NCBI GenBank assembly: GCA_024762925.1
Contig: JANTGM010000014.1
Coordinates: 1-64,000 of the forward strand
DNA length: 64,000 nucleotides
Direction: 5' to 3'
From: Kofleriaceae bacterium
Lineage (GTDB): Bacteria; Myxococcota_A; Polyangia; Haliangiales; Haliangiaceae
The position numbers and the translations under genes are program-made. Positions within the stretch are counted from its first letter, which is position 1. Each line of letters starts with the position of its first letter. Below are positions 2,366 through 46,303 of this stretch, piece by piece. The notes below the pieces were generated by a model. It searched no databases, was not told the origin of the DNA, and saw only the letters and a program-made list of their open reading frames with translations.

Positions 2366-3181
2366 TCATTCGGGATAGAAGACTTCCTGAAGGCAGAGCC
2401 CCTGGGCTGGGGCGGTTTGCCCCGCACGCCTTCGGTCCAAGCCCTCTAGAATTTGCCGCAACTGGGCAGGGCTCGTCTTTCCCATTGCCGCATCAACTAG
2501 CGTTCCTGCGATAATTCTCACCATGTTGCGCAGAAAGGCATTGCCCCACACCTCGATTTGCACCAAGTCGCGAGCTCGGCTCACGGTGATCTTGTCGATT
2601 CGGCGAGTTGCCGTGTGGGCTCCGCAGCCGGACGCGCGAAATGCGGAAAAGTCGTGCTCACCCACAAGAACATCCGCGGCTCGTTGCATCGCGGCGAGGT
2701 CGAGCTTTCCTGGGCGGTGCCAGCTAGTTCGGCGTTCGAGTGGGGCCGGAGCGAGCCGATTGAGCAGGGTGTAGCGGTAGTGTTTTCCGCGAGCATCAAA
2801 GCGCGGATGAAAGTTGGCTGCAACGTCAACGGCAGAGCGAACAGAGATTTGGTCTGGAAGAGCCGTGTTGATGCCACGCTGAAATCCGAAGCACGAAATC
2901 GAGCGCTGGGTCTTGAAGATGCAGGTTTGCCCGAGAGCGTGTACACCAGCATCGGTTCGAGAGGCGCCGAGAATCAGGTTCTCTTCGCCCGTCATCGAGC
3001 GGATGGCTTCTTCTAGGTGTTGCTGAACGGTTGGGCCGTTGTTCTGACGCTGCCAGCCGCATAGGCCCGTGCCATCGTATTCAACGATGAGCTTTAGCGT
3101 GCGCTCACCTTCGCTAGAATTCGAAGTTGATTCCGCCAAACCAGGTCGTATCGCCGACTGAGAGTTTGTCTGATGCCCCAA
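2366..3181 (-). CDS. truA: tRNA pseudouridine(38-40) synthase TruA
   Basis: TruA isomerises U38-U40 in the tRNA anticodon arm. The protein has the family landmarks: the beta-strand LKLIVEYDGT followed by GWQRQ, the catalytic aspartate in SRTDAGVHA, RYRYTL-like RHYRYTLLNR segment, and the C-terminal NAFLRNMVRIIAGTLV helix. Length (up to 271 aa) matches the E. coli enzyme (270). The start is uncertain: the longest frame starts at TTG 3181 and overlaps the upstream gene by 68 bases; an in-frame TTG at 3139 shortens the overlap. Neither has a good ribosome-binding site, and the conserved core begins only at about base 3100. Confidence 0.93.
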   Translation of the reverse strand: MGHQTNSQSAIRPGLAESTSNSSEGERTLKLIVEYDGTGLCGWQRQNNGPTVQQHLEEAIRSMTGEENLILGASRTDAGVHALGQTCIFKTQRSISCFGFQRGINTALPDQISVRSAVDVAANFHPRFDARGKHYRYTLLNRLAPAPLERRTSWHRPGKLDLAAMQRAADVLVGEHDFSAFRASGCGAHTATRRIDKITVSRARDLVQIEVWGNAFLRNMVRIIAGTLVDAAMGKTSPAQLRQILEGLDRRRAGQTAPAQGLCLQEVFYPE

Positions 3182-5471
3182 ATCCGTCTACGTCCGCCAA
3201 CTGTACTTCGGCAAAGAATCCTGCGTGCTCGATTCCCATTTCCGTGCGAAGCGAAAGCTCGGCGGACGGATCGATTCGCTCCGCACGCAGAGCGATGCCC
3301 AAGGTTGCCTGATAGCCGAAGGAACCACCGCGGCCGAAATTGCCGTCACAGGTGGAACCAGACATGCCAGCATCGGGACATGCTGCGGTTGGCGTCTCTG
3401 ATGTATCGCCATTGGGATCGGTGAACCACCAAAGGTAGTAGGCCAGGGCGAGTTTGCCATAGGGCACCACCGGAATGCCGTATTCGTCGTCGAGGCGGGT
3501 GAAGCGATACACCGCGCCCAGGGATGTTGGCATGAGGCGAAAGCTTGTTGAATCTCCTGAGGACCGCACAAGATTGCCATCCTCATCTTCAAAGGGCCTA
3601 CCATCGGGGCCGAGGGCAAACGCTTTGGCGCTTCGATTCGAGAAGCCGAGAGTGCCACTAATGCCAAGCTGGCCACTGGGAAAGGCAAAGTAGCGATCGA
3701 TCCCGAAGATCGTCATGACCTTCCACTTGTCGCCAAATACGTCCGCAAACGGTGTCATGCCGCCAGCGCTTGCATCGACATTCGGGGAGTAGGGGCCTAC
3801 TTTAACTTCGAAATTCCAGTGTGGTGTGGAGTCGCCAGAATCGATTTCTTCGTTGTACTCCTCCCAGTAGGCTTGTGCGTTTGCGGTAGCACTAAGGGCC
3901 AAGAGCGCAAGCACTGTCGATGTCGCAACGACCAGGCGACGTCCGCGCGTGCTCGGCACAGGCACGCTCCGTGTGCCATTTGCGCGCTCGGCACGGCGTC
4001 GACGTCGCATGCGAAGTATCATGCCCAGTGCCAAGAGCAGTGCGAGTTTGCCAAGCGGGCCTGTGTATTCCCAAATCGCCGCAAAAGCGACCAAGGGCGC
4101 CAACAGGAGGTAGGAGACAGCGCGCGCAACAGCATGGTCTTCAATAAAGCCGGCGAGGGCAGGGCTGTTGTCATAGTACCAGTCTATGAAACCACGTCCC
4201 CAAGCGTAGTGGGCCAGGGTGTCATCGCGAAAGACTCTAAGAATTTTTACGAACGGATGGTCGTAGTTCCCGTAGGTAGCCGTTGCTACAAAGCAGTACC
4301 CTCCGTCGGCATTGCCACCGTTTTCCTTGTAGTGTTCCCACGCATCTTCGACGGGCGCCGGAGTTGCTACGCCGAGGTCTAGCGCGGTCACGTTTCGATA
4401 GTTGTCGATGGAGAGCAGAACAATTCGGTACTCAACGTCGTTTTCGAGGCCGCCAACGCGGATACCGCTATCGGTTCCCGCCGCTTCCCCGCAGATGAAG
4501 TCAGGGTCTAGCTCGCGAAGCTCCTGCGGAAGGTTTGGATCGACGGTGCCTGCGTCAGCACCACCGGCACCGGCATCGGGAAGACCTGCGTCGGGCGCGC
4601 CTGCATCGGGTTCATCCGGCCCCGCATCGATTTGTGGGCCGAAGCTCGCGACTCCGATGGGCAGCGGTACAACACCATCCGCATCAGAATCGCATGCCAT
4701 GCGTGAGGTGAGGTACTCTGGGGCGTTGCTCGGGAAGCCATCGACGTCATTGACGGTTCCATCAACTCGCTGGCAGAGCACTTGAAAGAAGCGGATGTCA
4801 TCAGCGCGAGAGTTTGGCAAGTCCCAATCAATCTGGATGGCGGACTCCGCTCCAGCAATGCTGATGTTGTTTGGTGCTGGAGGAGGTTGGAGGTCAAAAG
4901 GAACGTCGAGCAAAACCTCGGCAATGTCGCCCGCTTCGATGCCGGGGGTACCTTCGTCGATGATTGCGTAAACCTGTCGCGTGCCGATCTCCGTTGGCTC
5001 GCAGTCTCGTACCGCCGAGATGAGCGACTTGACTGGCACAGGAAACTCGACGATTTCGTTTAATAGAGTCTCTGCGTCATCAATGCCGTGGGGGAGTTCG
5101 CAGTTGAGAGCCCGAACCGTGTCGATGTCTTGGGGACTGGAATCACAGCTTGAGCCGGTCCAAAACTCGACGTTCTGTGTTGTGGCGTAGGACGTCGGAC
5201 CGTTCTCATTGTTGAGGTTTACCCGCACGCCAAATTCAACATCTGCACCACATACACAATTGGCGAAGTTGAAGTGGTCCTTGATGTCTTCTTCGTTGGG
5301 GTTGCGTCTCGTGAGTTCTCCCTCCTCATCAGGCAGCAGCAACTCCGTTTCGAAGGTGGCACCCTCCAAGTCAAACGCTCCTGCCGACCCAGGCGAGAGT
5401 AAGAAGGCGCTGGCCAAGACCAGCCCGAGGGCACGAAGGGAACTAGATTTGACGACTCTTGACATGGGCAT
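3114..5471 (-). CDS. CFI-box C-terminal surface protein fused in frame to an outer-membrane beta-barrel
   Basis: A 785-aa ORF that looks like two exported proteins in one. Residues 1-33 are a signal peptide; 190-370 hold a fibronectin-III-like domain split by an Asp/Ala/Gly linker (282-308, DAG repeats); residues 393-465 match the CFI-box C-terminal region (CFVATATYG, later WYYDNSPALAGF); two membrane helices (about 451-488) end in RMRRRRR, as in a C-terminal sorting tail. Instead of stopping, the frame runs into RGRR plus a hydrophobic stretch ending ATANAQA (510-534), a typical Sec signal peptide, and then ~250 residues resembling the MXAN_2562-type outer-membrane barrel, ending in Phe (INFEF). 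An in-frame GTG at 3959 follows a GGAG at ribosome-binding distance, so the barrel may also start internally. Confidence 0.85.
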   Translation of the reverse strand: MPMSRVVKSSSLRALGLVLASAFLLSPGSAGAFDLEGATFETELLLPDEEGELTRRNPNEEDIKDHFNFANCVCGADVEFGVRVNLNNENGPTSYATTQNVEFWTGSSCDSSPQDIDTVRALNCELPHGIDDAETLLNEIVEFPVPVKSLISAVRDCEPTEIGTRQVYAIIDEGTPGIEAGDIAEVLLDVPFDLQPPPAPNNISIAGAESAIQIDWDLPNSRADDIRFFQVLCQRVDGTVNDVDGFPSNAPEYLTSRMACDSDADGVVPLPIGVASFGPQIDAGPDEPDAGAPDAGLPDAGAGGADAGTVDPNLPQELRELDPDFICGEAAGTDSGIRVGGLENDVEYRIVLLSIDNYRNVTALDLGVATPAPVEDAWEHYKENGGNADGGYCFVATATYGNYDHPFVKILRVFRDDTLAHYAWGRGFIDWYYDNSPALAGFIEDHAVARAVSYLLLAPLVAFAAIWEYTGPLGKLALLLALGMILRMRRRRRAERANGTRSVPVPSTRGRRLVVATSTVLALLALSATANAQAYWEEYNEEIDSGDSTPHWNFEVKVGPYSPNVDASAGGMTPFADVFGDKWKVMTIFGIDRYFAFPSGQLGISGTLGFSNRSAKAFALGPDGRPFEDEDGNLVRSSGDSTSFRLMPTSLGAVYRFTRLDDEYGIPVVPYGKLALAYYLWWFTDPNGDTSETPTAACPDAGMSGSTCDGNFGRGGSFGYQATLGIALRAERIDPSAELSLRTEMGIEHAGFFAEVQLADVDGFGASDKLSVGDTTWFGGINFEF

Positions 5472-43583: not shown

Positions 43584-44920
43584 CCTAACAAACGCCTTCG
43601 GCGCGCTGCGAAACCGAGAAGCAGCAAGAGGCCAAAGACAGCATTGCCACCGGGTTGGCCGCCAACAGAGCAACCGCCCTCGTCATGTCCAGGCCAGCAA
43701 ACCGAACCCTCTTCTGTGTCGAGGCAGCCAAAACCACTGGGACAGGTGCCATCGCCGTCGCAGACTTCGATGCAGGCGCGCTTTGAATCGTTGCTGACAC
43801 ATTTCGAAGAGGCGCAGCTCTCTGGCCCACTGCAAGATTGGCCGAGACCATCGGGCGCGTCGGGCCCGGGAACACATCGACCGCTCACGCAAGTCTCTTG
43901 CCCCGCACAATCGGTGGCGCCACAGCATGGCTCACCCTGCAAGACTTCGATGACTTCTGTGGTGCTGTAGTCGTAATTGTCGAATGCTGTTACTTCGATT
44001 CGAAGTCGCCCATCGCTCATGGTTGCTGGCACGTCAAAGAGATAGGGCTCGGTTTCACTCACCCCGAGGAAAACGCTATTTACCCGCACCTCTACGCGAT
44101 CCACTCGAATGTCATCGGTGGCGGAAGCTCTGATGGTGAACCCTGCATCCACATCGGCACCATCGATTGGACTTGTGATCGTGACCGTTGGAGGCGTTTG
44201 GATGCCGGGCCCAAAATGGCTTAGCAGCGTTTGATAGGAGTTTTGCGTAGGACCTCCGCAGGAACAGTCGCGAGGATTAAACTCCCCACAGGGCGCATCT
44301 TCATCTTGAAAGCGCTTGTTGTAGTCGCAGTTGCGCAAGTAGCTCATCGGGTCAGAACACAAATACTCGTGGTCCAAACCAAATGCATGGGCGGTTTCTT
44401 GGGCGATGACCCAGCAGGTCTCGGCCACGTCGTTTTCGACAAGCTCGGCAAAGGTAAAGGTGATGGCGTTGTTGATCGTCTCGCCGCACATAAAGGGGGC
44501 GATGCCACCAATGAGCCCAACCTGTCCGATGTCAGAGGCCAAGCCCGCGACAACCGCTTCAAAGTGCGGGGCATCACCCGGATCTTCGTCGGTGATTTCG
44601 ATATCAAAGGGCTTGTAGGTGTCGCGAACGCAATCGACGATGGCGTCCCACTGCAGCTGTCCGCCACTAAATGGCGGCACATGCCGAGTGCCATCAATGA
44701 TGGAGCTTGTGTTGTTGCTTGAGCTCTCGTTGCCGGGTGTGAAGTCGCAGCCGGTCCCAAAGCATCCGTTTAGGAAGATGAGGTTGGAATTGTGGCTTGT
44801 GGTATCGACACGCTCTGGATCCGCATGAACGTATGTGCCACGTGCACGCTCTGCCAACGCCGCACCATTGGCGAATCCGAAGACCACCGCAAGTGCAGGG
44901 AGGAAGGGTGCGAGTTTCAT
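43580..44920 (-). CDS. Secreted MYXO-CTERM metzincin-like protein (downstream copy)
   Basis: A 446-aa protein with a signal peptide (FGFANGAALA-ER) and a MYXO-CTERM tail (GCSVGG, hydrophobic helix, ARRRR). The N-terminal ~220 residues contain a metzincin-like site AQETAHAFGLDHEYLCSDPMSYL: the zinc-motif spacing and the Met-turn (DPMSY) are kept, but the first His of HExxHxxGxxH is Gln. An Ig-like domain (TVTITSPIDGADVDAG...) and a Cys-rich repeat region follow. It lies three bases after its paralogue and is coupled to DUF455. It is likely exported to the cell surface and processed there. Confidence 0.87.
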   Translation of the reverse strand: MKLAPFLPALAVVFGFANGAALAERARGTYVHADPERVDTTSHNSNLIFLNGCFGTGCDFTPGNESSSNNTSSIIDGTRHVPPFSGGQLQWDAIVDCVRDTYKPFDIEITDEDPGDAPHFEAVVAGLASDIGQVGLIGGIAPFMCGETINNAITFTFAELVENDVAETCWVIAQETAHAFGLDHEYLCSDPMSYLRNCDYNKRFQDEDAPCGEFNPRDCSCGGPTQNSYQTLLSHFGPGIQTPPTVTITSPIDGADVDAGFTIRASATDDIRVDRVEVRVNSVFLGVSETEPYLFDVPATMSDGRLRIEVTAFDNYDYSTTEVIEVLQGEPCCGATDCAGQETCVSGRCVPGPDAPDGLGQSCSGPESCASSKCVSNDSKRACIEVCDGDGTCPSGFGCLDTEEGSVCWPGHDEGGCSVGGQPGGNAVFGLLLLLGFAARRRRLLG

Positions 44921-44923
44921 GCT

Positions 44924-46303
44924 CTACGATAGACGTCGTCGGCGCTGGTAGAAGAGACCGAGAAGAACAAGGAAGAGGCCTGCGAGACCACCTGTGGGGG
45001 TTGCTGAGTTGCAGCCACAGCCGCCGGTGTCCTCAGTGACGCCAGCCCAGCAAACGTTTGTGTCGCCAGCTTTGAGACAGCCAAAGCCCGCTGGGCACTG
45101 ACCTTTGTCGAGTTCGCAGGTCTCGGTGCATGTGCCAACACCATCGGAGTCGCGTGCGCAGATTTCTGAGTTGCAGGTTGCGTCGTTATCGCAAGTGGCA
45201 GCAAAGCCACCAGGTGTTGTGCTGTCGGCAATGCAGAAGTTGTCGAAGCAGACGCGACCAGCGGGGCAGTCGCCAGCATCACAGCTCTCGCCAACATTGA
45301 TTTCGATGGTCTTGCTGCTGGCCCAGCCCCGAGCGTCGGTGCCGCGAACCTCAAGGGTTGTGTAGCCAGTCGTGCCTTCGGGTGCGTTGAAGATGTAAGG
45401 GGGAGATGACGTCTCACCAATGGAGTTGCCATTCACAAAGACTTCGACGTTATTAATCCCGTAGTAGTAATCGTCCCCAGAGACTTCGATAACAAAGTTT
45501 GGACTCACGTTGGAGTTTGCCAGCGGGCGCGCAAAATCGAGGTCGGGGCCGCGGTTGGGGCCAACGCCGAAGTGGTCTTCGAGGATGCGGTGTGAGTTCT
45601 GATTCTGACGACACATGCAAGAGGAAGGCTCGTACTCGCCACACGAAGCGTTCTCATCCTGAAACCACTTGAGACCACAGTCCGGCAGGTAGGTCATGGG
45701 ATCGGTGCACAGGTATTCGTGCTCAAGACCAAAGGCGTGTGCAGTCTCCTGGCCGACCGTCTCACAGATACTCTTGATCCCGTTGGCGTAGAAGTTCTCG
45801 TTTGCGAAGTTGAAGGAAATGGCATTGTTGATGATGCCGCAGCTAAAGGGAGCGACACCGCCGACCCCTTGTGGCATGCCAGCTTCCGAGGCCCGGCCAG
45901 CAACAATGGTCTCAAAGTGCTCAACATTGGGGCCAGGATCGACATCCGTGATGATGATATCGTAGGGATCGTAGAGAGCCGTCACACACTCGACAAGCTG
46001 CTCCCACTGAGCATCACCCTTGCCCCAAGCAGAGATGTTTGCGGTGCTGCCACCAGCAATAATTGATGAGCGATTGGTGCGAGAATCGTTGAAACCACCA
46101 CTGATGCTGCAGCCACCCTCACATCGATTTAGGTAAATGATCTTCGAGGTATGGCCATTGGGCTCGGCGATGTCCGCCATGGTGGAATCTACCCACTCAT
46201 AGGTCGTAATCGGGCGCTGGTCTTTTGCCTGAGCGTCGCCAACGAGGGCGAGAGAAGGAGCCAAGAGTAGAACGGGGAAGAGAAAACGGGCTGCACTGCT
46301 CAT
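44924..46303 (-). CDS. Secreted MYXO-CTERM metzincin-like protein (upstream copy)
   Basis: 459 aa from ATG 46303 (GTG 46309 is also in frame). Signal peptide ends LALVGDAQA-KD. The catalytic-type segment reads VGQETAHAFGLEHEYLCTDPMTYL: as in the paralogue, Gln replaces the first zinc His while Glu, the second and third His and the Met-turn are kept. Ig-like domain (~260-345), Cys-rich repeats (CPAGRVCFDNFC, CTETCELDKGQC), then the MYXO-CTERM tail (GGCGCNSATPTGG, helix, YQRRRR). It heads the operon with its paralogue, DUF455, ATP-grasp and GIDE-like genes. The 176 bases upstream hold no gene. Confidence 0.88.
   Translation of the reverse strand: MSSAARFLFPVLLLAPSLALVGDAQAKDQRPITTYEWVDSTMADIAEPNGHTSKIIYLNRCEGGCSISGGFNDSRTNRSSIIAGGSTANISAWGKGDAQWEQLVECVTALYDPYDIIITDVDPGPNVEHFETIVAGRASEAGMPQGVGGVAPFSCGIINNAISFNFANENFYANGIKSICETVGQETAHAFGLEHEYLCTDPMTYLPDCGLKWFQDENASCGEYEPSSCMCRQNQNSHRILEDHFGVGPNRGPDLDFARPLANSNVSPNFVIEVSGDDYYYGINNVEVFVNGNSIGETSSPPYIFNAPEGTTGYTTLEVRGTDARGWASSKTIEINVGESCDAGDCPAGRVCFDNFCIADSTTPGGFAATCDNDATCNSEICARDSDGVGTCTETCELDKGQCPAGFGCLKAGDTNVCWAGVTEDTGGCGCNSATPTGGLAGLFLVLLGLFYQRRRRLS

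Follow-up and report, generated by a model that had tools for sequence, protein, structure and literature searches.

The window, the 64,000-nt stretch of Kofleriaceae DNA analysed here (contig JANTGM010000014.1, positions 1 to 64,000), carries a 785-codon open reading frame that very probably encodes a bacterial polyprotein: one frame would give one precursor, which would be exported in two steps and cut into a tagged surface protein and an outer-membrane barrel. A processed polyprotein is the most likely source of the barrel, because fused pairs of this type have lost their internal start signals but keep a signal-peptidase site. Polyproteins are rare in bacteria. The frame runs on the minus strand from an ATG at 5471 to a stop at 3114. 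As an earlier reading of the letters alone (the sequence-only reading) had described, this one frame contains, in order, a signal peptide, a tandem Fn3-like region, a CFI box, a membrane helix, an Arg cluster, a second signal peptide, and a barrel. The features are as follows.

3114–5471, minus strand: fused ORF of 785 aa, with a tagged Fn3 surface protein followed by an internal signal peptide and an outer-membrane barrel
5376–5471, minus strand: first (N-terminal) signal peptide, residues 1–32, MPMSRVVKSSSLRALGLVLASAFLLSPGSAGA
4353–5360, minus strand: tandem Fn3-like region, residues 38–373, MXAN_2561-like (AlphaFold2 model and VIA-align)
4089–4295, minus strand: CFI-box tag, residues 393–461, whose first residue is the conserved Cys393 (NF041770, 72.2 bits)
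4008–4058, minus strand: last hydrophobic helix of the tag, residues 472–488 by hydropathy (472–497 in the model)
3993–4007, minus strand: Arg cluster RRRRR, residues 489–493; end of the tag and probable n-region of the internal signal peptide
3957–3959, minus strand: GTG of V505 with GGAG 7 nt upstream, earlier proposed as a candidate internal start; judged non-functional, as it is not conserved in congeners
3876–3932, minus strand: internal signal peptide, hydrophobic part and ANA motif, residues 514–532, with conserved Ala 530 and 532
3117–3875, minus strand: predicted mature barrel, residues 533–785, MXAN_2562 family, 8 strands (NF040596; VIA-align)
2366–3181, minus strand: listed ORF of truA, the next gene downstream of the fused ORF (TIGR00071, 195 bits)

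Two parts of the protein exceed the cut-offs of NCBIfam families. CFI_box_CTERM (NF041770) matches residues 393–461 along profile positions 1–69 with 72.2 bits (cut-off 40), and the MXAN_2562 barrel family (NF040596) matches residues 551–785 along its full profile (1–208) with 198 bits (cut-off 100). The match to MXAN_2561 (NF045522) is weak; it covers only residues 329–394, just before the box, and its 33.4 bits do not reach the cut-off of 150. The kinship of the N-terminal part to MXAN_2561 rests on the gene neighbourhood and on a profile built in this analysis. For the 785-residue protein, Pfam gave no match and a PDB sequence search gave no meaningful match. Although its name implies a C-terminal position, the CFI box is not C-terminal: 324 residues follow it in the encoded chain, and it would be near-terminal only once the predicted cut had been made. 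Downstream, the true start of truA probably lies inside the listed ORF, just past the barrel stop; the truA motif is also found just downstream at 58 other loci, split or fused.

Based on an AlphaFold2 model built with 56 fused relatives (mean pLDDT 83.7, pTM 0.73), the chain is predicted to run from the Fn3-like part (residues 38–373) through the helical CFI box, the last hydrophobic helix, a turn of low confidence, and a second signal helix to eight strands. VIA-align matched the modeled barrel to the barrels of OprF, OmpA, and OmpW (Z 14–16) and the modeled N-terminal part to Fn3 domains (Z up to 10.7). The barrel is thereby predicted to have the fold of an 8-stranded outer-membrane β-barrel.

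The fused frame is conserved throughout the family of the window. The barrel is present in 29 of its 30 genomes, and the frame is fused at all 27 loci with enough sequence to be tested; the nearest named relatives by barrel alignment are Kofleriaceae MAGs. For a wider comparison, 120 loci were taken and a profile was built for the Fn3/tag part. This part lies just upstream of the barrel at 118/118 loci with enough sequence, in the frame of the barrel at 59 and in a separate frame at 59. Another 20 loci from weaker or deeper families were fused in 8 cases and split in 10, and 2 had no detectable N-terminal part. Across the phylum, the homologues are therefore not all two genes: among 136 loci, in genomes that are related and many of which are MAGs, 67 are fused and 69 are split. 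The suggestion that the barrel is a partner of the tagged protein is also strengthened, as the two parts adjoin at 136 of 141 loci; of the other five, three are ended by contig ends and two are weak barrel matches without a detectable partner. Such constant gene pairing suggests that the tagged protein and the barrel may act as partners. In one 1.6-Mb genome that is sister to fused genomes (L095; G031, family f2), the CFI-box/barrel pair is split, a possible fission or an independent state. In family f10 (L109, L110, L113, and L066), the split barrel protein has a long acidic extension rich in Pro, ~100 residues, ahead of the barrel; other lineages lack it.

The fusion is also recurrent. On a tree of the 118 concatenated N-terminal parts and barrels, the fused and split states require 17 parsimony changes, and at least nine such changes are forced by well-supported branches; the direction, fusion versus fission, is not readable from this tree. 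Since a single stereotyped arrangement is common to the split pairs and fusing them is mutationally easy, we infer that the split state came first. Among 55 split pairs, the barrel start and the preceding stop share exactly 4 nt (ATGA or GTGA) in 38 and 1 nt in 7, and GGAGG mostly lies 4–8 nt before the start. A 4-nt stop/start overlap is the usual form of translational coupling, and one small indel at this overlap joins both frames. The ancestor of the fused ORF would thus likely have been an overlapping, translationally coupled gene pair.

Each fused chain passes from the last helix of the tag through a basic (Arg/Lys) cluster and a hydrophobic stretch to an AXA motif, and the loop between the helices can be as short as RRRK (G060). 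In the 56 fused proteins, Ala occupies column 530 in 96% and column 532 in 98%, compared with 4–23% in the adjacent columns and at most 55% in any column of the hydrophobic stretch of the internal signal peptide, while columns 489–492 are 86–100% Arg or Lys. Judged by its sequence pattern, this conserved Ala pair in the middle of a continuous frame is the −3/−1 rule of signal peptidase I. The internal signal peptide noticed by the sequence-only reading is indeed present; its end, given there as NAQA, is replaced by the conserved motif A530-N-A532, and cleavage is predicted between A532 and Q533.

These features would fit the following route. The first signal peptide would export the Fn3/CFI-box part until the last helix of the tag stopped transfer, with the Arg cluster remaining on the cytoplasmic side. 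This same cluster would then act as the n-region of the internal signal peptide, which would export the barrel, and signal peptidase I would cut after A532 to release the barrel, which could then insert into the outer membrane. The tagged part would retain an ordinary sorting tail and could reach the surface by a myxosortase-type route. A stop-transfer helix and a following signal peptide, each with its Arg residues in the cytoplasm, would form a hairpin with both flanking domains outside. Because the sorting tail ends with the very Arg cluster that the following signal peptide starts with, one cluster would serve both, and neighbouring genes could fuse without upsetting the topology; together with the easy indel at the overlap, this would explain why the fusion recurs. 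The likely gain is that a surface protein and its barrel partner are made 1:1 and delivered jointly.

One counterpoint concerns the box itself, in which hydropathy and the model place two hydrophobic helices, compared with one in MYXO-CTERM. Were both to span the membrane, the Arg cluster would end up outside, contrary to the topology proposed for the polyprotein. This genome has just one other CFI-box protein (contig C12, L002:97-1734, plus strand), which stops right after the box, without a membrane helix. This second protein suggests that the first helix of the box need not cross, and the box itself may not require a membrane helix.

Other explanations for the single frame were weighed against the polyprotein. 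A sequencing error or a stop codon lost recently in this genome only, the latter raised by the sequence-only reading, might be suspected in a draft of 246 contigs, but the same fused frame recurs in 27/27 family members that could be tested and also in many other families. Conservation of the fusion through the family and order refutes this explanation, leaving it a negligible probability. A nested gene, with the barrel translated mainly from its own start (GTG 3959 or ATG 4010) and the open frame incidental or a source of minor read-through, had been proposed from two GTG codons and a GGAG. These are present as described, V503 at 3965–3963 and V505 at 3959–3957 on the minus strand, with the 4-nt GGAG at a plausible spacing of 7 nt before the second, and an ATG lies near the junction at 4010–4008; split relatives use a start at the corresponding place. 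Moreover, one fused locus (G235), whose linker spans 75 residues and has an MKR start, may be two genes that share a frame by chance, and thus such a case. However, GTG 3959 and its GGAG are conserved in neither congener (G019 and G020). No ATG, GTG, or TTG that would yield a charged n-region exists in 29 of 61 fused genomes; a candidate internal start codon is found in 31 of 60, where 36 are expected by chance, and a 5-nt Shine-Dalgarno sequence at the junction in 0 of 60. In contrast, the split pairs, which served as positive control, have a start in 55/56 and a 5-nt Shine-Dalgarno sequence in 40/56 (Fisher p 2e-18 for Shine-Dalgarno in fused versus split, a value that overstates independence since the genomes are related). 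Furthermore, none of the 66 clear fused loci has a stop or frameshift, and codon differences at the junction fall on positions 1:2:3 as 295:200:413, a pattern indicating that the junction varies like translated coding sequence. Over the fused set, then, the second part has no independent start, and the counts reject a nested start as the general mode; in the window species alone, some internal initiation from the ATG at 4010–4008 or the GTG with its GGAG is possible. Overall, we regard the nested gene as unlikely.

The chain might instead stay whole, with the helix/signal hairpin anchoring both parts to the inner membrane or linking them across the envelope. A continuous frame would agree with this arrangement, the cut being a prediction from the sequence. 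Nevertheless, the −3/−1 Ala pair, kept in nearly all fused proteins, would have no reason to be conserved in an uncut chain, and with no more than the few residues from 533 to ~551 linking the 8-stranded barrel to an inner-membrane hairpin, BAM could hardly insert it; we consider an uncut fusion quite improbable. The conserved signal-peptidase I motif and the lack of a conserved internal start or Shine-Dalgarno sequence favor the processed polyprotein, the first of the possibilities that the sequence-only reading had offered.

Cleavage of a polyprotein at an internal signal peptide occurs in fbcH (cytochrome b/c1) of Bradyrhizobium japonicum. The same is indicated for PsbY of plants by titles cited in one article (PMC4823308). 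Like the fused ORF, these cases have one frame for two exported membrane proteins parted at an internal signal peptide; in contrast, they have no C-terminal sorting tag before the junction, are not surface or outer-membrane proteins, and belong to unrelated families. Our literature search gave nothing direct on bacterial signal-peptidase polyproteins. Closer in design is MXAN_5598 of Myxococcus xanthus, in which an internal MYXO-CTERM follows an adhesin region and precedes an outer-membrane barrel, and whose authors suggest a two-gene fusion with a processed N-terminal part (PMC11980579). It shares with the fused ORF an internal sorting tag before an outer-membrane barrel but differs in its families (a large adhesin, and a barrel with an OmpA domain) and in its tag, which is MYXO-CTERM and not a CFI box; moreover, it is a single case in a discussion, without analysis of start signals, cleavage site, or recurrence. 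TraA and TraB of M. xanthus, a tagged surface receptor and its barrel partner, are encoded by overlapping ORFs and occur 1:1 in complexes (PMC12045341, PMC11980579). Here, too, a tagged surface protein and an outer-membrane barrel are encoded together, and TraA/TraB may serve by analogy as a functional model for the present pair, although they are two unfused genes, TraB has an OmpA domain, and the present pair is known from gene pairing. As for MXAN_2561 and MXAN_2562 (NF045522 and NF040596), the barrel belongs to NF040596 and the upstream part, with its weak MXAN_2561 match, is its constant neighbour; those are separate NCBIfam families, whereas here the N-terminal part falls far below the NF045522 cut-off, bears a CFI box, and shares one frame with the barrel. 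No papers on MXAN_2561/2562 were found in the literature search.

The sorting tag itself varies among the loci. At 55 loci a CFI box closes the upstream part, and at 63 a MYXO-CTERM-like tail does so; both tags occur in fused and split states, and the tag type changes at least eight times on the tree. Both are preceded by one common lead-in, DFWExY..GG..GG[YF]C, in which the position of the Cys is shared, and the tag of the fused ORF has Cys393, a helix, and an Arg cluster. Given the shared lead-in and Cys, the CFI box looks, from these alignments, like an alternative tag to MYXO-CTERM around one Cys. In TraA, the MYXO-CTERM Cys is required for cleavage by myxosortase, and its lipidation has been proposed by the authors (PMC11980579). 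No paper on the CFI box was found in the literature searched.

A second fusion in the same genome combines MYXO-CTERM with a lipoprotein-like signal. Among 30 MYXO-CTERM tags inspected, 29 end at most 11 codons from the stop. The remaining one (contig C201, L278:293-5971, plus strand) lies near codon 900 in a frame of 1892 aa and is followed, over ~500 codons, by RRR, by a further signal sequence that ends in Cys, and by a secreted part bearing NCDG-type repeats. About 10 genomes of the family keep the joint frame across the junction, and their signal sequences have lipobox-like ends, for example VAGC, LTGC, and LGGC; the copy in this genome ends in QAAC, which is less canonical. In the same genome, a paralogue pair is split, its second gene starting 1 nt past the stop of the first; in other genomes, two split paralogous pairs have a 4-nt overlap with GGAGG. 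This second, independent fusion of tag to signal peptide, itself conserved, indicates that the design extends beyond one gene.

The MYXO-CTERM/myxosortase system was already known, as was the internal MYXO-CTERM before the barrel of MXAN_5598 as a possible fusion. The hint of a sorting system given by the sequence-only reading holds only in part: this system is established, and the genome encodes a myxosortase. New, within the literature searched, are the CFI-box case, the recurrence across the phylum, the loss of start signals with the cleavage site retained, the exchange of tags around one Cys, and the second, lipoprotein-type fusion. More tentatively, and with somewhat less than even confidence, we propose that the hairpin of tag, Arg cluster, and internal signal peptide may be a general polyprotein junction of Myxococcota, arising repeatedly from overlapping pairs and yielding matched partners, and that the CFI box and MYXO-CTERM may be interchangeable, so that CFI-box proteins would be sorted in a myxosortase-like manner. 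The shared-Arg design predicts more such fusions, and the fused set offers a natural way to test whether surface protein and barrel work together 1:1, as TraA and TraB do. The comparative evidence also suggests that the CFI box performs the same job as MYXO-CTERM, and annotators should be aware that a sorting tag can occur in mid-frame.

The genome contains 35 matches to MYXO-CTERM (TIGR03901), none of which falls on the tag of the fused ORF, two CFI-box matches, and one protease with a myxosortase core (Mrt_core, 119 bits, cut-off 100). This myxosortase (contig C2, L279:1381-2103, plus strand) lies below the MrtX, MrtP, and MrtC cut-offs, and no named subtype fits it. Within the window, two MYXO-CTERM tags on the minus strand (43592–43678 and 44933–45025), ~1.3 kb apart, mark two neighbouring tagged surface proteins.
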